DNA of 64,000 nucleotides from a virus. The notes beneath the pieces are model-generated. The model ran no database searches and was not told the DNA's origin. It saw only the letters and a program-made list of their open reading frames with translations. The stretch spans positions 106,949-170,948 of the IMG/VR virus record IMGVR_UViG_3300035670_000014; one strand, 5' to 3'. Position 1 is the first letter of the stretch; each line of letters begins with the position of its first letter. Below, piece by piece: positions 1-37,500 of the stretch. A program made the translations under genes and the position numbers.

Positions 1-795
1 AATAACATCAGGCTTGTTGTATTTAGTTTGTTGACTCTTAGGATTCCAAAGGAATGATTCTCCCTTTGGGTTCCATACTTCGTTGATCTTATGAAGCTGC
101 TCACTATGGGTGAGCATTATGACTTCACAAGCAAGTTGATCTTTGGCCTTCTGAGATAAAGTTGAATCAATAAGCTGGAAAAGCTTAATCCAGTCCTGCC
201 TGGCACCAGGATAAAGAATCACCGGACTAAAGTTCAAGTGAACTTCATAGCCGGCATCAACAAGTTGATTGATTGCATTTATTCTTGCTGATATTTGACT
301 AGTCCTGATGTCAACATATTGGGATATAGATTGAGGCATAAGGCTATACCTTATCCTTACCCTATCCCCAGGATCAAAAGCCAGTAGAGGGGCAATATTG
401 ACCGTTTTAGTAGCAAAGCTAACCTTAGCATTCTCGCTGTGCTTAACAGCTTCCATTATTTCCAGTGGAATGTTGGAAATCATAAGGTCAAGGCTTACAT
501 CATTGTTATTACCAATGTCATAAGTCCAATACTTGGAATCACACTGATTAGGTTCAAGCTTAGGACCCAAAGAGTTAGAATGAGAAATTATAGAATCTAT
601 AACATCATCTGTATTAACAAATATAGTAACAGGATTAGAACCACCCTTTCTACGAGCCGTATAACAGTTGTGAGTTAGAATATTTTCAGCAAAATAATTT
701 TCATAAACAGGAACATGGAAATTATAAACAGTCGTATTTTTTTCAATTTTCTTTATACTTTGAATTTTAGAAAACTTAGGAGTTTTAAGTTGCAT
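1..795 (-). CDS. C-terminal half of split-intein-interrupted SPL-family radical SAM protein (partial)
   Basis: This open frame enters from the window's left edge. If translation starts at ATG 795, the first 43 residues (795-667) form a C-intein with a typical ending: SIKKIEKNTTVYNF, then YFAENILTHN, i.e. a penultimate His and a terminal Asn. The next codon, Cys at 666-664, is the +1 extein residue. The C-extein (666 to 1) begins CYTARRKGGSNP and continues with stretches typical of the spore photoproduct lyase family: SFATKTVNIAPLL, RIRYSLMPQS, AGYEVHLNFSPVI and NPKGESFLW. Trans-splicing to the N-half at 1328-1918 would rebuild GCFSSCLYC-YTARRKGG, the CxxxCxxC motif that holds the 4Fe-4S cluster. 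The family cleaves thymine-dimer-type lesions using SAM; the substrate here is unknown. The frame differs from that of the N-half, so the halves are separate polypeptides. The stop lies outside the window. Confidence 0.87.
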   Translation of the reverse strand, partial: MQLKTPKFSKIQSIKKIEKNTTVYNFHVPVYENYFAENILTHNCYTARRKGGSNPVTIFVNTDDVIDSIISHSNSLGPKLEPNQCDSKYWTYDIGNNNDVSLDLMISNIPLEIMEAVKHSENAKVSFATKTVNIAPLLAFDPGDRVRIRYSLMPQSISQYVDIRTSQISARINAINQLVDAGYEVHLNFSPVILYPGARQDWIKLFQLIDSTLSQKAKDQLACEVIMLTHSEQLHKINEVWNPKGESFLWNPKSQQTKYNKPDVI

Positions 796-1626
796 AACTG
801 TTCTGTTTGTGGAAAGTTTACTAATAAAAAATGCTGTGAAGAAAAAGTATTCCTAGAGAAAGGTTTAGTATTTAACTATCACAGTGAAGCTGCAAGATAT
901 TTTAATGTAGATTCAAGATATGCAAAAAGAAAACTCTATAATGTAAACTATACTTTAAGTGAAATAAAAATAACAAAAAACAGCAAACTAGTTAATTGTA
1001 AAATTTGCAATCAATCATCAATAACTTCAAAATGTAGAGCTGGATATTGTAAAAATTGCTCTCGTAAAGGATTAGGTAAGAAAACTAGAGGAATAGAATT
1101 AAGAAATAAATACCTTGGAGAGAAAAATCCAAACTTTAAAGATGGTAAAGCAAGGCAGTCGATAAGAAACAGACATGAATGGAAAGAAATAAGAAAAGAA
1201 ATTCTTTCAGAAAGACAATGCTGTGAAGTAAGTGGACATAGTAAATACTTACATCTTCATCATATATTGCCAGTTTGCTTATTTCCACAATATTCATTAG
1301 AAAAATGGAACATTATTGTTCTTCAGGCTAATCTACACATAGAAGTTCATCGTCAAGATTTAGATATTGTGCTTCTACCCAACCTCTGTTCTTTGTATAA
1401 AGAGGATGTTCACCTGATACGCGAAGAGTTCGTCCGTCAACTGAAATTTCATAAATTTCACTTACTTGACGAGATGCCAAATGAAAAGCTTGAGCTACTA
1501 AAGGAGAACCAGAATTGGTATCGTAAGAAATTACATCTGATCCCGATAGAATTTGTTCTACAGGAATTTGGCCACTTGGAGTGGATATCAAAGTTCCTTC
1601 TTCCACGCAGTAGAGGCAAGAACTAA
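790..1626 (+). CDS. HNH homing endonuclease in the gap of the split intein
   Basis: This is an HNH nuclease on the strand opposite its host gene. The protein has Cys-rich zinc-ribbon-like stretches (CSVCGK..CC, then CKIC and CKNC), a GEKNPNFKDGK segment like those in phage homing enzymes, and an HNH core LHLHHILP followed by NIIVLQANLHIEVHR. The frame is open from ATG 715. I prefer the TTG at 790 because AGGAG lies 7 nt upstream, and this cuts the overlap with the C-intein to 6 nt. After the HNH core the ORF runs ~90 codons antisense to the whole N-intein and ends 17 nt beyond its first Cys. Homing endonucleases spread their host element by cutting uninterrupted alleles; that this one mobilises the intein is inferred from position. 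A free-standing endonuclease between split-intein halves matches the 'fractured gene' layout known from phage metagenomes. Confidence 0.85.
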   Translation: MHNCSVCGKFTNKKCCEEKVFLEKGLVFNYHSEAARYFNVDSRYAKRKLYNVNYTLSEIKITKNSKLVNCKICNQSSITSKCRAGYCKNCSRKGLGKKTRGIELRNKYLGEKNPNFKDGKARQSIRNRHEWKEIRKEILSERQCCEVSGHSKYLHLHHILPVCLFPQYSLEKWNIIVLQANLHIEVHRQDLDIVLLPNLCSLYKEDVHLIREEFVRQLKFHKFHLLDEMPNEKLELLKENQNWYRKKLHLIPIEFVLQEFGHLEWISKFLLPRSRGKN

Positions 1627-1918
1627 AACAGCCGTTTGCATGAGACGGCGGAATAAAATCAGTTGACCTTCCAGAATCAGTCATTGCCATATTAGACATA
1701 CGACCAATAACAAGAACATGTCTTTTATTTGCTATCCAATCTACAGGATCGGCCTTAGCTAAATCTGGAATAAGCCAGTGATTCTTAACATATTTAACTT
1801 CATAGTTAGAGCCAGAATCTGCAAGCTTTTGACAGATTGATGTGATTCTAGATATTTCCTTTTCACTATAATTACAATTCTGTATATAAAGAGTATTTAT
1901 ATCACTCAGTTTAATCAC
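1328..1918 (-). CDS. N-terminal half of SPL-family radical SAM protein fused to N-intein
   Basis: The N-extein ends in STDFIPPSHANGCFSSCLY. The next Cys (codon 1609-1607) is intein residue 1 and also stands where the third cluster cysteine of CxxxCxxC must be. The N-intein is ~93 residues (1609-1331): block A CVEEGTLISTPSGQIPVEQI, block B SGEHPLYTKNRGW, ending DDELLCVD before a TAG. It resembles short phage split N-inteins such as NrdJ-1. The C-half is encoded at 1-795 in another frame beyond an antisense HNH gene. Upstream the frame is open to a TTG at 1954, but that codon lies inside the previous gene's terminator hairpin. GTG 1918, with AAGGGGA 5-6 nt upstream, is the better start. The enzyme would be active only after trans-splicing restores the cysteine from the C-extein (+1 Cys). 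Confidence 0.87.
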   Translation of the reverse strand: MIKLSDINTLYIQNCNYSEKEISRITSICQKLADSGSNYEVKYVKNHWLIPDLAKADPVDWIANKRHVLVIGRMSNMAMTDSGRSTDFIPPSHANGCFSSCLYCVEEGTLISTPSGQIPVEQILSGSDVISYDTNSGSPLVAQAFHLASRQVSEIYEISVDGRTLRVSGEHPLYTKNRGWVEAQYLNLDDELLCVD

Positions 1919-1940
1919 TAGGTCCCCTTGGTTGGTATTA

Positions 1941-1960
1941 AGAAAAGGCCCCAAGGGGCC
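1941..1960 (-). terminator. Rho-independent terminator after the DUF262-like gene
   Basis: On the minus strand a GGCCCC-TTGG-GGCC hairpin is followed by TTTTCTT, just after the stop of the 1969-2517 gene and just before the SPL N-half. Confidence 0.75.
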
Positions 1961-9978: not shown

Positions 9979-11083
9979 TCACAAGCGGATGGGCATGACA
10001 ACTGCCATCTTGTCACCTGATTCATCCTGAAACAGGATCGGTGAAAGGGAATTTTCCGCATACATCAAGACCTTATCATACCCCTTCAACGCATCCATCA
10101 TGTAGTTTACGTTGACGGCGAATTTAGCGGCCTTGTGTTCTGCAAGGTAACCGCCTTGAATTATGATTTCGTGATCCTGCGTAAATAGGGTGTCTTCGGA
10201 CACAACGCCGATAGAAATCTTCATTTCGTTATTTTCAGCAACGACACTCACGCATTTATACTTCTTATCCACTAGCCGCGAAAGGGTCTTGAACGCATCT
10301 AAGGCAACCTTTGCTGATCCCGCAAACACAGGAGATTTGTAATAGGGGATTACCTGATTATAGTTTGGGAACGACATGGTATCGTCCCCCTTAATACGGA
10401 TTTCGTACCCGTCAAATCCCGTGAATGAGTTATCGTCCCATATGATAGACGCACGGGTACCGTTTTTACGCACCGTGGGATCAAACCGATATTGCGCGTT
10501 TTCTATGCCGGAAAACAGATTCCACACGTCCCGTGGAATTAGGTAGGTATCCGCCGTGTCATCTTCTGATCTGGTAGATGCGTTGGAGGGTGTTATCACC
10601 GCGTCTTTTTTTAGGGACTTGAATTCGAGTCAATCGGTGTCCGTCCGTTGAAACGAGTGCCATCTTCCCGTTTTTCACTTCTGCCATAACATGCATAAGC
10701 GAGGGGAGGGATTCGTCCGCTGACACGTTAGACGCAACACTATCCGCATAATTGCGAAAGGCTTTACCCGTATTTATCAGTACGGCGTCCGGTTGATCCA
10801 CCGACGGAGGAATCTGGAAGTCCAAAGGCGGGATTTCATTCAACTGGTTGTCAACCGCAGGGGGAAGTAAATTGACTTGGGAAGTCAACGGGGATTTTTG
10901 ACTCCGAAGCCTAAATCCCGTTTCCGTAGCTTCAATACTGTCAAACCCATTAGCGCGTAGGGAGTCGTGCAAAATCACCCCTAGAAAATTGGCATTTTCT
11001 GGAGCTGGGAGGATGTAGAACGCGGAAAATAATCCCGCATTTACACGAATCACAGCCTTGCCCCTTCCGCCTTCACGAGGCAT
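9979..11083 (-). pseudogene. dnaN: DNA polymerase sliding clamp (beta subunit) with a frameshift
   Basis: Two overlapping frames together encode a clamp of about 367 residues, the usual DnaN length. The upstream frame (11083-10559) carries domain 2 (VKNGKMALVSTDGHRLTRIQ). The downstream frame (10599-9979) carries domain 3, ending in YAENSLSPILF and KMAVVMPIRL, the canonical DnaN C-terminus. The frames join at a run of seven A (rc ...CCT AAA AAA AGA): reading six A, or a +1 shift, gives VPKKDAVITP and restores one protein. The clamp would tether a replicative polymerase. The break may be a sequencing error, transcriptional slippage, programmed +1 frameshifting or true decay; both halves still look well kept. 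Domain 1 is poorly recognisable. Base composition is higher in GC than in the flanking leftward genes. Confidence 0.8.
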
Positions 11084-28177: not shown

Positions 28178-31100
28178 TTATTCCTTGAAGAACTTCTCCA
28201 CGTACTTCTTGGCCGCAAGCTTGACTTTTGGCAGATTTGCAACCTTACACAGAAGCTGGCCAAGGTGATTCTCACCTTTACCCTTACACTTACCCCAGAA
28301 GGTATCACCCCAGTGGTTATTTTCCACAGGAGTAACTTTGCCGCCCGAAGTTGCAGCGTAAAGGCGAAAAGCCAAATACATTCCTTCTGGAGTATCTGCT
28401 TGGTCAGCAAACTTAGACTCCAGGATGCAGTACATGACATCTAACCTTAAAGCCTCCCAGGTTGCCATTGCATCAGGTGAAGAAGGCTTAAAGTCCTTAG
28501 CCTTCTTCTTTGCCGTGTACCCGTTGTCAGTAGGAAGAATAGTGTTTTCTTCTTGATTGAGAATATTACACTTAATCCACTGATACAAGGTCTCACTTGA
28601 GGCAAAGACAACACCATCTGCCACTACGGAGCACGGATACATGTTAGACATAAACTCAAAGTCCTTAGACTTAAAGTTATCAGTCTCACTGATTACCAGT
28701 TGTCCATAGTGGCTCTTTCGAGCTGAAGGCTCGTGCTCGGTCGACTTATTTGCCAGCTTCAACAAGATGTCACCGTGACACTTCTTGGGTGCACACCAGC
28801 ACACTAAGTCCTTGCCTTTCAATTCATGCAAAGATTTCATGAGTTCTGGTTGTTGTACTACCCAGTCAGCGTACTTCTCCACAGCTTCGTCTCGCGTCTG
28901 ACACTTCCACTTGGCTGATGTTTCAGCCTGGTGGCTAAATGGATTACCCCACTTAGTAGGGCGTCCAATGTAGACTGCGGTTTCGGGAGCCGTGTTGGCA
29001 TGCTTGTTGTGCACCACTGGCAAGCCAGGAGGAGTCGGAGGCGTGTCATTAACAACACCAACCAAAGACACATGACGAGCATTCTTCTTGCCCAAGGCAA
29101 GATACTTGTCATAGGTGTCCTTAACACCTCCAATTGGTCCGTTCTCCCCAAAGGTAAAGGCAATCAAGAAGTCCGAATCTTCCGCAATCAGAGTATTGCG
29201 ATCAAACAGGCCCTTGATCTCTCCACTCTGGAAAGTTACCTGGTGCCGCTCATCCCGAGGATCATTCCAGTAGGTATTAACCATTGCCTGGATGTCCTCA
29301 AGAGACCAGGACTGGCTTTCGCCGTCAGTCATGGCAAGGCTAAACTGCCGGTGATACTTATTCATGGCATCACCTGCGTCGTTTGCCTCTTTGACAGTAA
29401 AGGCATTATTCTCAAACTCAGCACCAAGGTGCAAAGTAAGAGCTTCAACCTCTGCGCCCATGAGGAGGGATATTGCAACATGGTCAGACCAAGCCGCACC
29501 TCCACTGACAAGACGAATCGCCTCGGCACCAGTTGCAGCCTTAATTGCTGCAACAGCCTTCTTGGTGCGCTCAACCATGAACAAGAAATGTTCTTTGGTC
29601 AAGTTCTCACCGCGGCCAGCGGTGCCAATAACACCCAGAGTCACCGTCTTCTCAGGCAAACGGTAGTAGCCGTCGATGTCCTCGGTGCGATTATCGCCAT
29701 CGCCGTCAAAAGTGACGACATAACGACTCTCATCGTTCCCAAGGAAGCTGATACCAGAGTAACCAGCTGCCTTCACTCGTGTGAAGAAGGCGTTGCTGTT
29801 GTCCCCTGGATTCAGCAGGTCGAACGGCTTACCAGTCTCCCGGTAGTGCTCAGACCGCAGCTGCTCGTAGGCCGCCCTTCCATCCTTGGACAGTCTAACC
29901 AAGAAGTTGGTAAGGTCAACCTTACGGGAGTCAATCTGACTTCCATAGGTCTTTGCCTCCTCCTTGTCCTCGGTCCAGTACTGGAATTCACGTCCATCGC
30001 TCCTACCATGAAGACCCTGATAGACAGTGACCTCAGCAGCAACTTCTGGTTCGACTTCTACTTCTGCTGGCCCTGGCTCAGGATCAGAGCCACTACAGAA
30101 GTCAAGAGACAGCTGATAGCGGTAGGAGTGACAGCCACTTCCATCTTCATCTCCGTAGAACCAGAACAAAAGAGGCTCTGAGAAATGGTGCAGGAAGTGC
30201 TCCATGAAAGCTTCATCCATGTCCCCTTGTTCCTCGAAGTACCCTACCTCAATGTAGAGGCCAGTATAGCCTCTCTTCTTGAGGTACAGGAAGAATTCAC
30301 CATCAGACTTCAGGTCCTCAATGAAGTCTTCACGAGTCTGCAGTGACTTAACATCAAGGCAGTACTCGATGTGGATCTTGAGGAGCTGACGAAGGCTGCT
30401 GGGCGACTCAATGACCAGCATAGCCGACCTATCAAAGACTCTATAGTCTCCGACGCCTGCCATGGAAGCTTGACTAGCAAGCCAGGTCGAGAAGTCCTCT
30501 TCCTCTTCCTCATCCCCCTCGTAGTACTTAGACGCAAGGATAAGGTTTGGATCAGGATCTGTAAATGGATGCCTATAAGTAGGCACTTCCACTTCAGGTT
30601 CCGCCTTCACCTCAGTCTTGATCTCGACTACCTCAGACTCGACAACCTCAGGCTTAGCCTCGACAACTTCAGCCTCGATCACCTCACTGTAAGTGAAGTC
30701 CTCGACTGCCACATCTTCGAGACCATCGAAGTCGTAGTTGTCGAAGTCCACATCAGTGTGATAGCCGATGGGGCCTGAGGTGTAGTCCACCTGCTCAACC
30801 GAAGGAGCGAACTCCGACAGGTCCAGCTTGCCGAGAGGAGAAACCTCGCCCTCAAATGCAACCGTGACCTTAAAGGTCGGGTGCAGAACCTGCACCGCTG
30901 GGTTGCTTGCCTTGGTATTCCCGGTCACATCAGTTTCGATGCTGATGACACGGTACTTGTCAAGGCCCTTGTGGGAGATAAACTCCTCAAGCAGCTCGGG
31001 GGTGACGACCTTCGTGTCTTTGAAGAAATCCCTGAAGGCCGTGTTGATCAAGGTTGTAGCACCCCTCTCAACCCTCAGCTTGCCAAGGAAATTCTCACCC

Positions 31101-34100
31101 TTGGTCTTGAGGATTCCACCACGCAGAACGTCACTCAGAAGCTGACCAACAACCTCAGAGTTGATCTGAGAAGCAACCTCAGAATCAAGCACGAAGGCAT
31201 CGCCAAACTCTGACTTCCGCTTGACCATCGGGGTCTTGATGTCAAGTCCCAACTCAGCCACGTCAGGCCCCTTGCCATTGATGAAGGCAAAGTAGGCCTT
31301 CCCGAAGTCCTTATACTCGTCGTTAAACGAGAAACCAAGGACAACGGTGCTCTGAGGAGCGGAAGCGCCCAGGACATTCAGGGCCTTGAGCGAGTAGACC
31401 CAAGGACCCTCAGGCAGGCCGTCAGCAGACATGACCGGCGTCCCGTCCTCATTCAGGTAGTTGCCCACATACAGAGTGTGGATGGGCAGCTTGTCAACCT
31501 GAATTGAACCGAAGCTCCGGCGGCCGCTCTTGATGAACTGCTCGCAGGAAAGCGCCCGCTCAGGATTGGCCTGGTCAGTCTTGAACGCGTTCGCACGCTT
31601 GACCAGCTGGAGGAAGGTCCAGAGGGCAAAGCGCAGCTTGCCAGACTCATTCCAGGCATGCCACTCCTTGAGCCAGGCCTGCTCGACAGCTGCCCTTGCA
31701 CGGATTCGGCTCTTCTTGTCAAGAGGAAGAGCTTCAACCTGGGCAATCTTGTCGAATCGACCCCTGTTCAAGCGAGAGCAGAAGTCTGCAAAACCTGCAA
31801 TCTCTGCCTCGTGGGTGCCAAGGGCAGCCTCAAGCTGAAGCCAGGGTGACTCCTCAAGAGTCTGCTCGACCTGCTCGAAGGCGATCCGCAACACGGAATC
31901 CTTGTACTTCTCGAACAAGTCAAAGACCCATGAAGTAGCACGCTCAACCTTCACGTTCTTGAACGCAAAGTGCAGTGCCTTGATGCCCTGACCGGTCGCA
32001 GCATCACCCTCCTGAAGGAGCTGACTCTGCCCAGCAAAAGGAGCCGCAAAGGCCGCAATGCCACGCTTCATCAGCCAGCCAGGGAAGTAGAACTTCATCT
32101 GGCTTGCAGGCAGCATGTGCATGCTGTACGAGACGGTAGTTTCACCCTCGTACTTTTCGACCTTCTTGCTCGGGTCGCCGAACAGAGCAAGGCCCATGTA
32201 CATGGAAACAGACCAGATCATCTGCATGACCTTTACTGCCTCCGGCACATTCTGACCCTGAGTGTCGGCGTCGATGACGTTCGACAGCATCTCTGACATG
32301 GTCAGCAAGATGAGGTCGAGGTAGGTCAAGGACTTCCACTCACCGTTCGGGTCAAGGCCATCAGACTCAATTACTGACCTGACGTTTGCCCTGAGGTTAA
32401 ACTTGTCACCAAAGTGAACAAGCCCCTGCATGATGGCACCCATCAGCATCTGCACGTTAGCTGCAGTACCAGTGGTGCCCTTCATGTTCTCCAGTGCAAA
32501 GATTGCACTGTCGACCCTCTCCAGAGGAGAGCTGAACACCCGGAGGTTGCCGCTCGTGTCAAGTGCACCCTCGGTGAAGTACCTCTCGGCAAACTGCAGC
32601 TTCGCCATGTTCATGATGAACGCAGTCAAGCCGACTGGGATAGTCGAAGGGGGAAGCTTGGCATTCGTTTTACCTTCTGCCTGCTTCCTATTCCTCCGCT
32701 CCTCAGCCTTCAGGTGAGCGTTGTTCAGCTCCTTGAGGACGAAGTCGTTGGCTGCCCTGTCTCCAACAAGGTCACGAACCAAAGCCTCGTCGTCTCCGCC
32801 AAAGCCAAAGGAGTACCAGCCTTTGAAGTCAAAGCGGGTATCCAGTGCCATGTGCCGGAACTGACCGACCTGAGAGTTCAGGAAGTCAAGAGCCACCTTC
32901 CTCTTCTCCTCGCCGGGAGTCATGGCAATAATGGCCTGCTTCTTGCGCTCCTGGAAGCGGATGCAAGACTTGGCCAAGTCGCCGTGAATCTCCGCCATCC
33001 GGTCGTCAAGGTCTGCACCGTCCTGTGCCTTGAAGAAGATTTCAAAGGCCTCAGGAGTTGGCATGACCCAGCGGCACCCGACTGGCACCGAGTCCATTGG
33101 GACAAGGATACCCCATGCTCCCGACTTGAAAGTCGAAGGGTTCCGGTAATAGAACACCAACGGGGAGCCATGCAGACCCATGATCCGGTTGTAATCTGCA
33201 GTGTTGCAGAAAATAACCCGGTTGTAATCATAGGTCAAGCCAAGTGGCTTGAGGTGATTCTCGACCAGAGACTTAATCTGCTCCTCAGATACTGCATTCT
33301 TATATGCAGACCAAAGAGCCTTCGTCTCGTCCTTGACGTTGAGCTTCATCACCTCAGCTACGGCCTCAAACATCAGGCCAGGGTGCACCTGCGGATACAC
33401 CGACTCAGCGATCTTGGTATACACCATCTCGCCGTTGGCGTTTGGCATCTTCAATGCCAAGGGCAGTCGGGTCCTTGCAGGGTCCATTGCCTGATTGGTG
33501 AGCTGGTTCATGATTGGCGCTACCAGCTGAGGCAGAGGAATGCCGTTCCCAATCACCTTAGCAGTCCCACCGAGGACCTCCTTGAGGCGGCTCGCAGCGA
33601 GGAGTGCGTCAGCAACGCCTTCAGGCTCTGACTCATCCCCATCCATGAGGTCGGTGAAGATCTCAGAGTCAAGCTCTGACATTTCGTTCTTCACTCTCAG
33701 GTTGGAGAGAATCTCCTCAAGGCGGGTCGTTGCATCCTCTTCAATCTTCTTGAAGATGTCAATGACCGCCGGATCCCTCAGGTCAAACCCGTTGATCAGG
33801 CTCTGAGTGTCAGTGCAGACACCCTTACGAGCCTTCGGGACACCCGAGTTCAGGATGATCGTAGCTCGATCATCTGACCAGGTGGGGCAGATTTCACCCT
33901 TTGACCCGTAGGCAATCATGTCCTTCCCAGTAGCCTTCATGAACTCTGGAGACATGATGTGGAAGCCACCCTTCACCATGAAGTTGGTGAAGTAGGCTCG
34001 GCCAATGAGGATCTTCCCATCGAGCTTGCCTGCCTTGAGGTCAGCCAGATAGTCCTGAGGCAGCACGAGAGCCATGAGGCGGCGAGAGACAAACACCACG

Positions 34101-35188
34101 CCGTCATAGATCTCATCGGCAAGCATTGCTGCCTTAGCCTTCTCGAACAGGCTGTCACCGTTAACTGGCTTGACGACCAGGACAGAGTCCTTAAGAGCAT
34201 TAAGCTTGAAGGTCTGCCCTTCCAGCTTGTAGCTCTTATTGAACTCAACGACCTTGCCACGGAGCAAGTTCGGCGCAAAGTACTGAGAAATGTACTTCTG
34301 CGCCTTCGCTGCAGCCTGCACCTGCTTCGCCGGTGAGCCGTCCTCTTTGACCTTCACTCCATAGACGCAAGAAGCAAGCTTCATTGCTTCGTCGTCAGTT
34401 GCCTTAGACAAGGCATCATTGGTCAAGTTGAGGAACAAGCAGGTGGGGTTGACATCGGGAGTCTTATCAATTCCCTTGTCGCTCTCCTCCCAGGTCTCCC
34501 CAGCGGCCTCAGCTGCCTTCCGCTTCAACTCCCTGAGCTGCTTCTTCTCAGCCTTCTTGGAGGCCTCGATTCGTCGCTCATAGAGTGAGTCCATCGAGTC
34601 TTTGCTGAGAGCATTGACCAGAGAGGTCCTGGCAGCAACCTCGACCTGCTCGGACCCATAGTTGGTCTGAATCAGGTTGAGTGTTGCCCATGCCTGAGCA
34701 AGCTCGCCCGCAGTCAGGTGGCGCAGGTCGCCGTGCTTCTTCAGACAGTCAAGCGCTCGCTTGACCGTGAAGTAGAAGTCAATGCTTGCGCCTGAGCTTG
34801 GAGCCCGGTGCAGGTGATGCAAAGACTTCTGCCAGACATTGACGTCGCCAGGCTTCACGTTAAACGGCTTAAAGCCGTAAAACTTCTCAAAAGCGGCCAT
34901 GATTTCTGCCGTCTTCTGAGCATACGGTGCCATGGAGTCAACGTGGACCTTGTAGGCCACCTTGGCATCTTTCTCGTCAAATCCTGGCCAGTTGAAAAGC
35001 TCAGGAGACGTCAGGTTGAGTCCAACCTTATGCCCAAGCAGAACACGGATCATTGCCACTGCCGCAGGCAATACGAGGGACTTGTAGTCTTCCTCGTTGC
35101 AGCGGATAGCCTCGATGTTCTCAGACTTCAGCGTCTTGAAGAGTTCGAGTGCCTGGTCATTGGCTACTTCTACTTTCACTTCGCTCAT
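28178..35188 (-). CDS. Giant multidomain protein with ART-like, SLOG-like, DUF4326 and NADAR domains
   Basis: 2,336 residues from ATG 35188 (CAGGAGGGTCTC upstream); an in-frame ATG lies 29 codons earlier. The C-terminal third has four recognisable modules. ~1720-1835: VTVYQGLHGRS, FQYWTEDKEEAKTYGSQ, then VKAAGYSGISFLG, like an ADP-ribosyltransferase fold. ~1845-2055: LGVIGTAGRGE, RLVSGGAAWSDHVAISL, FDRNTLIAEDSDFLIAFTFG, a SLOG-type nucleotide-binding domain. ~2070-2160: YIGRPTKWGNPF, DEAVEKYADW, LVCWCAPKKCHGD (DUF4326). ~2165-2336: FEFMSNMYPCSVVADGVVFA, SSETLYQWIKCN, NHWGDTFWGKCKGKGENHLG (NADAR, YbiA-like). SLOG, DUF4326 and NADAR are linked in the literature to NAD/ADP-ribose metabolism. The N-terminal ~1,480 residues are mostly unassigned; a DGADLDDRM motif near 725 may be RNA-polymerase-like (see findings). 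Acidic VEAKPEVVESEVVE linkers join the parts. Confidence 0.75.
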   Translation of the reverse strand: MSEVKVEVANDQALELFKTLKSENIEAIRCNEEDYKSLVLPAAVAMIRVLLGHKVGLNLTSPELFNWPGFDEKDAKVAYKVHVDSMAPYAQKTAEIMAAFEKFYGFKPFNVKPGDVNVWQKSLHHLHRAPSSGASIDFYFTVKRALDCLKKHGDLRHLTAGELAQAWATLNLIQTNYGSEQVEVAARTSLVNALSKDSMDSLYERRIEASKKAEKKQLRELKRKAAEAAGETWEESDKGIDKTPDVNPTCLFLNLTNDALSKATDDEAMKLASCVYGVKVKEDGSPAKQVQAAAKAQKYISQYFAPNLLRGKVVEFNKSYKLEGQTFKLNALKDSVLVVKPVNGDSLFEKAKAAMLADEIYDGVVFVSRRLMALVLPQDYLADLKAGKLDGKILIGRAYFTNFMVKGGFHIMSPEFMKATGKDMIAYGSKGEICPTWSDDRATIILNSGVPKARKGVCTDTQSLINGFDLRDPAVIDIFKKIEEDATTRLEEILSNLRVKNEMSELDSEIFTDLMDGDESEPEGVADALLAASRLKEVLGGTAKVIGNGIPLPQLVAPIMNQLTNQAMDPARTRLPLALKMPNANGEMVYTKIAESVYPQVHPGLMFEAVAEVMKLNVKDETKALWSAYKNAVSEEQIKSLVENHLKPLGLTYDYNRVIFCNTADYNRIMGLHGSPLVFYYRNPSTFKSGAWGILVPMDSVPVGCRWVMPTPEAFEIFFKAQDGADLDDRMAEIHGDLAKSCIRFQERKKQAIIAMTPGEEKRKVALDFLNSQVGQFRHMALDTRFDFKGWYSFGFGGDDEALVRDLVGDRAANDFVLKELNNAHLKAEERRNRKQAEGKTNAKLPPSTIPVGLTAFIMNMAKLQFAERYFTEGALDTSGNLRVFSSPLERVDSAIFALENMKGTTGTAANVQMLMGAIMQGLVHFGDKFNLRANVRSVIESDGLDPNGEWKSLTYLDLILLTMSEMLSNVIDADTQGQNVPEAVKVMQMIWSVSMYMGLALFGDPSKKVEKYEGETTVSYSMHMLPASQMKFYFPGWLMKRGIAAFAAPFAGQSQLLQEGDAATGQGIKALHFAFKNVKVERATSWVFDLFEKYKDSVLRIAFEQVEQTLEESPWLQLEAALGTHEAEIAGFADFCSRLNRGRFDKIAQVEALPLDKKSRIRARAAVEQAWLKEWHAWNESGKLRFALWTFLQLVKRANAFKTDQANPERALSCEQFIKSGRRSFGSIQVDKLPIHTLYVGNYLNEDGTPVMSADGLPEGPWVYSLKALNVLGASAPQSTVVLGFSFNDEYKDFGKAYFAFINGKGPDVAELGLDIKTPMVKRKSEFGDAFVLDSEVASQINSEVVGQLLSDVLRGGILKTKGENFLGKLRVERGATTLINTAFRDFFKDTKVVTPELLEEFISHKGLDKYRVISIETDVTGNTKASNPAVQVLHPTFKVTVAFEGEVSPLGKLDLSEFAPSVEQVDYTSGPIGYHTDVDFDNYDFDGLEDVAVEDFTYSEVIEAEVVEAKPEVVESEVVEIKTEVKAEPEVEVPTYRHPFTDPDPNLILASKYYEGDEEEEEDFSTWLASQASMAGVGDYRVFDRSAMLVIESPSSLRQLLKIHIEYCLDVKSLQTREDFIEDLKSDGEFFLYLKKRGYTGLYIEVGYFEEQGDMDEAFMEHFLHHFSEPLLFWFYGDEDGSGCHSYRYQLSLDFCSGSDPEPGPAEVEVEPEVAAEVTVYQGLHGRSDGREFQYWTEDKEEAKTYGSQIDSRKVDLTNFLVRLSKDGRAAYEQLRSEHYRETGKPFDLLNPGDNSNAFFTRVKAAGYSGISFLGNDESRYVVTFDGDGDNRTEDIDGYYRLPEKTVTLGVIGTAGRGENLTKEHFLFMVERTKKAVAAIKAATGAEAIRLVSGGAAWSDHVAISLLMGAEVEALTLHLGAEFENNAFTVKEANDAGDAMNKYHRQFSLAMTDGESQSWSLEDIQAMVNTYWNDPRDERHQVTFQSGEIKGLFDRNTLIAEDSDFLIAFTFGENGPIGGVKDTYDKYLALGKKNARHVSLVGVVNDTPPTPPGLPVVHNKHANTAPETAVYIGRPTKWGNPFSHQAETSAKWKCQTRDEAVEKYADWVVQQPELMKSLHELKGKDLVCWCAPKKCHGDILLKLANKSTEHEPSARKSHYGQLVISETDNFKSKDFEFMSNMYPCSVVADGVVFASSETLYQWIKCNILNQEENTILPTDNGYTAKKKAKDFKPSSPDAMATWEALRLDVMYCILESKFADQADTPEGMYLAFRLYAATSGGKVTPVENNHWGDTFWGKCKGKGENHLGQLLCKVANLPKVKLAAKKYVEKFFKE

Positions 35189-35271
35189 GAGACCCTCCTG
35201 GTCTACGTGGGGTTGGTTCCCCTGGTCATTTGCATCCGGCAGACTATCTGCCTTTTGCACAGTAATAATTG

Positions 35272-35967
35272 TCATGACTTGGCCTTAGGCTCGGCTAAGC
35301 AGGGTGACTGCAAACCCTCCGAAGGAGGGTCGGGCCATGCTTGCTCTGTATCCAGAGCAAGGTAAGCAGCCTCGGCAGCTGCCTGCTCCTCAAGCTGGCA
35401 GTCGTGCATCCACTGGTCGAACATTGCCTGAGACCAAGCAAGCTCGTCATCATCAGTGAAGTGCCTAGACCTGTCCGCTGCAGCAGGTACTTGCTCGACC
35501 CACTTCTCCAAAGCTCGTTCCAGTTCCCATCGCTGGAATTCCAGGTTTGGCCAGTCATTGCCAAGGAACAGGGAACAGCCCATGGCCGAGGGCAAGCTGG
35601 CCATAGAGAAGACCTCAGCCTCCTCCTCAACATGCCACTGATCGTAGCTGTTAATGGCTTGAGCCCAGCGGATTCGGACCCCGCAGCTCAGAACCTGCCC
35701 TTTTTCCTGAGCCTGAGCCCACTCGATCTGCTCTCGCAGCTCCGAGTAGTACTCATCCCAGTCGTGCATGGTAGCGTAAGATACGCCACCCACTGCAACC
35801 TCAGTGTTGAGGCTGTAGAAGTGCGAATCCTGACGCAACATCTCTGCCGCGACCTCGGCTGCTTCCTCAGTAGTTTCCCACTGAGCAAGGAGATCAGGGC
35901 ACTCGTCCGCCTTACTGGCCTTGAACTTACCCACAATCATAGAGATCATAAGCTTAAAGTATTTCAT
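35272..35967 (-). CDS. Hypothetical acidic protein
   Basis: 231 residues from ATG 35967 (CGAGGG upstream; the open frame extends 13 codons further). The N-terminus KYFKLMISMIVGKF is hydrophobic, and the rest is helical, Trp- and Glu-rich (DEYYSELREQIEWAQAQEKG; RWELERALEKWVEQVPAA; AWSQAMFDQWMHDCQLEEQA). Not recognised. It lies directly upstream of the giant gene on the same strand (83-nt gap) and probably shares its transcript. Confidence 0.6.
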   Translation of the reverse strand: MKYFKLMISMIVGKFKASKADECPDLLAQWETTEEAAEVAAEMLRQDSHFYSLNTEVAVGGVSYATMHDWDEYYSELREQIEWAQAQEKGQVLSCGVRIRWAQAINSYDQWHVEEEAEVFSMASLPSAMGCSLFLGNDWPNLEFQRWELERALEKWVEQVPAAADRSRHFTDDDELAWSQAMFDQWMHDCQLEEQAAAEAAYLALDTEQAWPDPPSEGLQSPCLAEPKAKS

Positions 35968-36017
35968 TTTATTACCCTCGTGTTGTTTGGTTTGCTGGTT
36001 GAGCAAAGACTGGCTGC

Positions 36018-37094
36018 TTATGCAGCCTTCTTTGCGTAGCGGGCCAGGACATCCGCAAACTTAAAGTTTGCGCTGCCTCCGACCTTGCTGGCTGCTGCCC
36101 AGTCTTCAGTGAGCGTAAGGTCCATGAAGACCTCCGACTCCTGGCTGGCCAGCCAAGCCTGGCGCTTTGCTTCGCGCTCAAGCTCCTTGATGGTGCGGCG
36201 GTGAGCCGCAGCCTTCTGGTTCATGACCAGTCGGTAGCCACGGAAGCTCAGAACCCGCAGGTTCTTTGGCCCGGTGATGCTGTCCGTCGTCATTGCCCAG
36301 ACGAGCCTTTCGATCTGCTCGTTGATGCAGGCAATGTCGCTTCGCAGCGATTCGGTCGCCAGGAAAGCTGCCTTCTTGGGAAGGCGGGTGAAGGCCTGCG
36401 TGACCTTCTCCTGCACTTCTGCGCGGCTAGCCAACAGGCTTCCAATCTTGGCCATCACGACGGCCACAATCGACCGGCGGCGAGCAGCGAGGGCCTTAGC
36501 GGCCTTGATCTGTGCCTCGGTCTGGACCTGACGCCAGGCCGGGGCAGCTGCTGCTGCCTTTGCGGCCGCCTTGCCCTTGCGGGTCATGGCAGCGCGCTGA
36601 GCCGGAGTGGTCTCCGGTGCAGTAACAACGTGTGCCCAGCGAGCGCGGGCAGGAGCCTTCGGAGCAGTTGCCACTGCCTTGGGTGCCAGCACGTCGCTGG
36701 CGATGAGGCGAGCACGACTAGCCGTGCTGACCTTCTTAGCCATGGTGGCCCGCTCTGCAAGAGAGCAGGCTTCCCAGAAGCCAAGAAAACTGAAGATGGC
36801 CTTGACGAAGGCCTTCTCAGCTGCACGCTGAGTGCGTGCAGCAAGCTTTGCCTCAGCGCGGGCTTGCGCCTTTGCTGCAGCGGGGCTGACGGTAGCCTGG
36901 GAGTCCAGGTCGCCGGTCGAGGTGCTGTGGTCAGCGTGCTTCGATCGGTCCATGATGACCAAAGGAAGCACACGAAGGGGTGCCGGGGCCGCCGGTACGG
37001 TGGCCTTCCGGCCGTAGATGTTTTCGCGGACCGCAATCCGGTCCGCATTGGCAAGCACCTTAAGTGCCGCCAATGAAGGAATAAGGTTTGCCAC
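36018..37094 (-). CDS. Ala/Lys/Arg-rich basic protein
   Basis: About 358 residues from GTG 37094, which has AAGGAGG 5 nt upstream. Long Ala/Lys/Arg helices (KAQARAEAKLAARTQRAAEK; MTRKGKAAAKAAAAAPAWRQ) resemble histone-H1/nucleoid-type tails; the C-terminal part is more globular (RSDIACINEQIERLVWAMTT; KFADVLARYAKKAA). DNA or RNA binding is inferred from charge. The frame is open to a second well-placed GTG at 37478 (GGAGG 6 nt upstream) that would add a signal-peptide-like start (MNTCEIILAVAATLGCAPAQ) and a Cys-rich segment. Such a head does not fit a basic cytoplasmic protein, so I keep the internal start. Confidence 0.55.
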   Translation of the reverse strand: MANLIPSLAALKVLANADRIAVRENIYGRKATVPAAPAPLRVLPLVIMDRSKHADHSTSTGDLDSQATVSPAAAKAQARAEAKLAARTQRAAEKAFVKAIFSFLGFWEACSLAERATMAKKVSTASRARLIASDVLAPKAVATAPKAPARARWAHVVTAPETTPAQRAAMTRKGKAAAKAAAAAPAWRQVQTEAQIKAAKALAARRRSIVAVVMAKIGSLLASRAEVQEKVTQAFTRLPKKAAFLATESLRSDIACINEQIERLVWAMTTDSITGPKNLRVLSFRGYRLVMNQKAAAHRRTIKELEREAKRQAWLASQESEVFMDLTLTEDWAAASKVGGSANFKFADVLARYAKKAA

Positions 37095-37109
37095 GGTAAC
37101 CTCCTTGCT

Positions 37110-37500
37110 CATAGAGCATTTGATGCCAACTAAACGCCCAACAACGGGCTGATTAGCTTTCTCTGTGGCAGAGAAATGACCACTATGGTCAAGGCAATAG
37201 TCGACTGGGATTTGAACCCCATTAACTCCACAGTTGGAGCTATCAACTTTGGGCCAAGTGCAAGGCCCAATGGTATCTGTCTGGCACTTCAAACAATTGC
37301 CGCTCGTTGCCAAAGTGGCATCCTGTGAGCGGGTTGAGCAGAAGCCCATGCTGGTCAGGCACTGGAGGAGAAAGACCGAGGCTTGACCAGAGCCTCGGTT
37401 TGCCCAGTTGCCCTGGGCGGGGGCGCAGCCAAGGGTGGCTGCCACCGCGAGAATGATCTCGCAGGTGTTCATGATCACTTATTACCTCCAAGGGTAAATG
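37110..37500 (-). other. Open leader region with tRNA-like T-arm and Cys-rich reading frame
   Basis: The frame of the 36018 gene stays open to GTG 37478 with a good ribosome-binding site (TTGGAGG), encoding a signal-like N-terminus and ~10 Cys. The same DNA is rich in hairpins (GGGCC...GGCCC, GACCATAGTGGTC, GCCCGTTGTTGGGC) and holds a 51-nt tRNA-like element at 37198-37248. It may be an extended leader, a separate secreted microprotein start, or both. Confidence 0.35.

Follow-up and report, generated by a model that had tools for sequence, protein, structure and literature searches.

Dassa et al. 2009 (NAR) reportedly described phage 'fractured genes' with split inteins, the NrdJ-1 type included, and to our knowledge the published definition of such genes does not require the endonuclease to lie on the same strand. 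Here we describe a locus of this kind at the left edge, on the minus strand, of a 64,000-nt stretch of phage DNA (positions 106949-170948 of the 170,948-nt IMG/VR virus record IMGVR_UViG_3300035670_000014; hereafter the window, meaning the whole stretch analysed). In it a split intein interrupts an SPL-family radical-SAM gene, and an open reading frame (ORF) for a probable HNH homing endonuclease runs antisense across the intein itself. All coordinates are window positions unless a record position is stated.

Several known systems come close. NrdJ-1 and the other phage fractured genes resemble the window in split point, fragment sizes, block motifs, phage host and the presence of an endonuclease between the halves, whereas in NrdJ-1-type and other surveyed loci the intervening ORF is sense and in the window it is antisense and overlaps the N-intein (IN). 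UvsW of Salmonella phage S16 and Proteus phage PM2 is likewise interrupted within an active-site motif by a split intein whose halves flank an ORF, and the C-intein (IC) of the window is 51% identical to that of PM2 over 41 residues; there, however, the intervening ORF is of another type, lies on the same strand and overlaps the halves by just ~10 and 38-65 nt. The PolB split intein of Pseudomonas phage MIJ3 comes with an HNH endonuclease, but all three genes share one strand and the host gene is polB (PMC6892783). In our two surveys of viral split inteins outside the SPL group the intervening ORF was on the sense strand in 56/56 and 24/24 loci, many of them near copies, so that independent cases are fewer (roughly ten in the first survey, of 56 loci, by our own grouping); the ten such ORFs sampled gave matches to endonuclease or resolvase-like, HNH or GIY-YIG families. 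Neither in the window nor in its nine relatives (L199-L207, below) is the intervening ORF on the strand of the host gene. We found no antisense-endonuclease case in the literature compared, outside of which Dassa et al. 2009 falls, and no description of a split intein that is itself crossed in antisense by its endonuclease gene while selection acts on both frames. Phage split inteins with a resident endonuclease are already known; it is the antisense endonuclease gene that makes this locus unusual. The insertion site is not new: inteins of the actinobacterial Rv2578c family of radical-SAM proteins (NCBIfam NF038136) occupy the same position, GCxxxCxY/C, before the third cluster cysteine (a slash marks the insertion site). 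They sit at GCSHACTY/C, with profile matches at 1-76 and 335-573, and intein-free alleles exist; unlike the window's, these inteins are continuous, cis-splicing and housed in another radical-SAM family, and antisense genes were not looked for there.

To characterize the element, we examined the two halves of the interrupted gene. The N-half runs from GTG 1918, preceded by a Shine-Dalgarno-like AAGGGGA, to the stop at 1328; it reads GCFSSCLY and then the intein start, CVEEGTLISTPSG...GEHPLYTKNRGWVEAQYLNLDDELLCVD (junction and end GCFSSCLY/CVEEGT...DDELLCVD, then stop). The C-half (296 amino acids, N-terminus MQLKTPKF) starts at ATG 795 with MQLKTPKFSKIQSIKK...NYFAENILTHN, continues with CYTARRKGG, and has its stop codon 96 nt past the window edge in the full virus record. 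All class 1 intein residues are present (C1, block B SGEH, THN and C+1). When joined, the intein scores 47.9 bits against Pfam Intein_splicing (PF14890; cut-off 35.8), each half alone being under the cut-off, and 23.8 bits against TIGR01445, just under the cut-off of 24.5. The nearest solved structure is NrdJ-1 (8ubs, E 8e-12). These matches place the element among the naturally split inteins of NrdJ-1 type.

Removal of the intein leaves a 368-amino-acid protein that aligns with bacterial homologues gap-free at the junction, through NGCxxxCxYCY, with 41–46% identity to bacterial SPL-family proteins. The exteins match consecutive segments of TIGR03886 (positions 26-94 and 90-346), and the joined extein reaches 97.6 bits against PF20903 (cut-off 27) and 392.7 bits against TIGR03886 (equivalog cut-off 437.55); it is a close relative of the latter family, under its curated line. 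The gene is broken between CxxxCLY and the third cluster cysteine, which leaves two cluster cysteines on the N-half and one on the C-half. Since the intein sits exactly before the third, no CxxxCxxC motif can form until the halves are spliced. The first-pass annotation, made from the letters alone, had proposed a naturally split intein at a radical-SAM cluster cysteine, like NrdJ-1, with halves in different frames ~530 bp apart and a cluster motif that does not form without splicing; the Intein_splicing score, the gapless joined extein, the 8ubs match, the measured spacing (532 bp) and the exact insertion point agree with it on each of these. By its TIGR04070 score (94.9 bits against 400) the enzyme is not a genuine spore photoproduct lyase. 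At the position of that enzyme's H-donor cysteine, which we take to be C140 of the solved structure, the window's enzyme has no aligned cysteine.

The two halves lie in different frames on either side of a gap (796-1327) that holds 8, 15 and 8 stops in its three minus frames. A plus-strand ORF spans this entire gap as 177 codons with 0 stops, every other gap frame being full of stops, and continues as far as 1626, covering all of the N-intein in antisense. The annotation was right about the separation of the halves and missed this ORF, which fills the gap and crosses the N-intein. The ORF matches the HNH endonuclease families phrog_12434 (1.5e-8) and phrog_144 (4e-8), and the catalytic HH, N and H align across loci. 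Its start is located at the start codon of the C-half, where TTG 790 aligns beside the ATG of the relatives (M[SN]CxxCGK). Conservation extends to its tail, and the final histidines of the HNH set fall within the overlap. An AlphaFold model of the ORF alone was uninformative (predicted local distance difference test score, pLDDT, 31). By its profile matches and catalytic residues the ORF would encode an HNH homing endonuclease that probably spreads the element, and we predict that this antisense gene is expressed in the window's phage. The host enzyme is found in two ORFs, each with an intein half, and an endonuclease gene between them, which is the arrangement of a fractured-gene split intein.

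To find relatives, viral contigs were searched with a split-intein profile headed by the sequence from the window. The layout recurs in nine further IMG/VR contigs (L199-L207), whose N-inteins are up to 69% identical to that of the window. An SPL-like radical-SAM gene is split at the same Y/C position, with both halves present in eight contigs (L199 ends at a contig edge); the host gene was checked against TIGR03886 in two of the nine. Cys1, the block B His, His-Asn and Cys+1 are complete and conserved in the loci found. In each of the nine, the other strand also encodes an HNH-like ORF, in the antisense phase seen in the window; the HNH and intein sequences of these loci are homologous.

We next asked whether both frames of the overlap are maintained, by counting variable columns at codon positions 1/2/3 among the nine relatives. 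In ordinary coding regions the third position varied most: 12/6/24 for IC, 148/114/222 for the C-extein and 75/58/142 for the part that is HNH only. The overlap read in the HNH frame kept this order (24/18/31), and read in the intein frame it gave 26/34/21, the third position being least variable (bootstrap P(pos3>pos2) 0.005). When synonymous codon columns were permuted, the observed antisense similarity was reached in 6/5000 permutations, and jointly with the absence of stops in 0/5000; the reverse permutation, with the HNH protein fixed and the intein frame scored, gave 0/5000. The inverted wobble and the permutation tests in each direction therefore show that both overlapping frames are constrained among the relatives.

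Empty sites were surveyed in the 80 best viral relatives of the L202-type gene. The exact junction is uninterrupted in 79 of them, the remaining one being L202's own contig; the annotation had suggested looking for such intact SPL alleles in related phages. Over the 120 nt that flank the junction on either side, the occupied locus L201 is 90% identical in nucleotides to the empty allele L316. In 21/21 pairs, similarity is higher for the element than for the adjoining C-extein (for example 96% vs 76%), which indicates lateral movement of the kind that homing predicts. Because an endonuclease gene, empty sites and lateral movement occur together, we read the locus as a selfish mobile element. 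Elsewhere, in seven viral split inteins (L121, L149, L208, L209, L214, L219 and L222), the matched halves lie just 18-66 nt apart with no endonuclease ORF, which looks like loss of the endonuclease from an element that kept its split; simple frameshifts of cis inteins are possible there.

We suggest, with a probability of roughly 0.87, that the locus is a selfish homing split-intein element with an antiparallel overlapping endonuclease, which repairs its host protein by trans-splicing. Its anatomy, catalytic residues, empty sites, ten-locus layout and, in the relatives, selection on both frames can be read from the sequences; splicing, DNA cleavage and homing are predicted from them. The minus strand would make two precursors, N-extein-IN and IC-C-extein, whose association may be aided by opposite charges (IN -9, IC +3). 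Trans-splicing would then join Tyr to the third cluster Cys, yielding an uninterrupted SPL-family radical-SAM enzyme. From the plus strand would come the HNH endonuclease, its C-terminal tail written in the antisense of IN; it is expected to cut intein-less alleles at the CxxxCxY/C codons, and repair of the cut allele would copy in the element at its full length of ~0.95 kb. More tentatively, overprinting of the endonuclease tail on the N-intein could lock the two genes together: neither could be shortened or degenerate without damage to the other, the intein being needed by the host enzyme, and this lineage would escape the decay that ordinarily forms part of the homing cycle. The strands would then be timed apart or subject to antisense-RNA interference. 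We consider this possible, though doubtful. The locus is a clear natural example of overlapping genes on opposite strands, in which alleles with and without the element can be compared. It allows a test of whether a homing endonuclease is shielded from decay by overlapping another gene, and it supplies protein engineering with a further natural split intein, whose native junction is Tyr/Cys-Tyr.

Several observations weigh against this reading. The block B residue that is mostly Thr in the relatives is Ser in the window, and the ATG 795 of the C-half has no Shine-Dalgarno sequence. HNH profile scores are weak in the relatives: of four ORFs scanned, phrog_144 was matched by 2/4 and phrog_8048 by 3/4. 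The element of the window stands far from the others (34-35% amino acid identity for HNH, 42-47% for IN). The nine relatives are closely related among themselves, and pairwise counts are not independent. Finally, between the window and the relatives the codon-position signal is flat (0.40/0.41/0.45) and not inverted, since their divergence is too high for an inverted signal.

An alternative is that the antisense extension is a chance open frame, the endonuclease ending near the gap, which would leave an ordinary fractured gene in all but orientation. Antisense ORFs can open by chance, as 38 of 10,826 same-phase windows in this phage's other genes have 97 stop-free codons, and the HNH profile match reaches no further than ORF residue 217, near the beginning of the overlap. 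Against this, the frame is open in 10/10 loci, at each of which just 0.03-0.7% of synonymous recodings would leave it so (P(open) 0.0003-0.007 per locus); stops number 4-7 in each of the other two antisense frames. In the window, ~0.2% of synonymous recodings of the N-half leave it open to 1626. With the inverted wobble signature, the conserved tail and the last HNH histidines inside the overlap, chance is a quite unlikely explanation. Also at odds with what we find is an assembly error or decay, that is, a frameshifted continuous intein or a dead radical-SAM gene. A single assembly of the window's locus was found, and contigs L107-L109, with related portal proteins, do not cover it. An assembly error that restores one frame had been named by the annotation as what would overturn its proposal; because of the 8/15/8 stops in the minus frames of the gap, a single base error cannot do so. 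These 31 stops face an open plus-strand HNH frame, the same split recurs in nine separate contigs, the exteins of the relatives are under normal purifying selection and every splice residue is present, all of which makes error or decay extremely improbable.

The annotation went further and saw in the split an absolute on-switch, possibly redox- or metal-responsive, for the radical-SAM enzyme. The cluster motif is indeed divided, so activity requires splicing, and disulphides of active-site Cys make some inteins sensitive to the oxidation state of the cell (PMC4031507). Since inteins commonly occupy conserved active-site motifs (PMC7765530), such a dependence is not evidence of regulation; it is a general consequence of intein position, and the same Y/C site is used in actinobacteria. 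Nearly all related phage genes do without the intein, the element moves laterally and carries an endonuclease, and the cysteines of IN are just Cys1 and Cys91, with none in IC. The mobile-element evidence points elsewhere, and we regard a retained switch as quite unlikely. It is also conceivable that the halves associate into a working enzyme of two pieces, with no splicing at all; a known genes-in-pieces ribonucleotide reductase, which has a homing endonuclease inserted, speaks for this (Friedrich 2007, as cited in a passage of PMC10448857). The complete and conserved splicing residues speak against this, as does the 2+1 division of the cluster cysteines, with which an unspliced cluster is unlikely; we consider it very improbable. 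The selfish homing element with trans-splicing repair remains our preferred reading, and its features are given in Table 1.

Table 1. Features of the split-intein locus (window positions)
Feature	Position	Strand	Remarks
N-extein, SPL-family radical-SAM protein	1610..1918	-	GTG start; ends ...GCFSSCLY
N-intein (IN)	1328..1609	-	93 amino acids + stop; Cys1 codon 1609-1607; block B SGEH
C-intein (IC)	667..795	-	43 amino acids; ATG start; ends ...ILTHN
C-extein	1..666	-	opens with Cys+1 (third cluster cysteine); runs 96 nt beyond the window to record position 106853
Probable HNH homing-endonuclease ORF	790..1626	+	278 amino acids from TTG; in-frame ATG upstream at 715
AGGAG Shine-Dalgarno	778..782	+	7 nt before TTG 790; within antisense of C-intein
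Antiparallel overlap	1328..1626	both	HNH C-terminal tail (+) over N-intein (-) and last 17 nt of N-extein
Whole mobile element	667..1609	both	943 bp, C1 codon to last IC codon

In a tree, the window's enzyme falls near other viral SPL-family genes and one cyanobacterial gene, on a long branch, and a single viral clade is not rejected (p 0.58). The cultured phage records searched contained no close SPL-family homologue, just weak intein matches and two weak matches of 24-26%, and single-query searches of the viral contigs with P0002, with the spliced protein and with P0003 gave no close relatives. Uncultured phages (L277-L356) very often carry an SPL-family radical-SAM gene, with at least 538 relatives among the 600 pattern matches listed. 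In a 146-kb viral contig (L024:5896-7020) an SPL-family gene appears frameshifted into several ORFs, which looks like decay or sequencing error.

A promoter scan gave background level. Just upstream of the N-half, at 1921-1960 (-), lies a terminator-like hairpin whose alternative fold is a 10-bp stem, interrupted by one bulge (-19.6 kcal/mol, z -1.9), covering the AAGGGGA of GTG 1918; it is possibly an attenuator. Among the neighbouring minus-strand genes, a GmrSD N-terminal-like protein (1969-2517) adjoins the element; the others are a PP-loop ATPase (family PF01171, 5622-6263) and a weak match to a sliding-clamp C-terminal domain (9979-10599). Further on, the GC-rich genes at 28178-37478 have unusually many long antisense ORFs, in an antisense phase that differs from that of the HNH/N-intein overlap.
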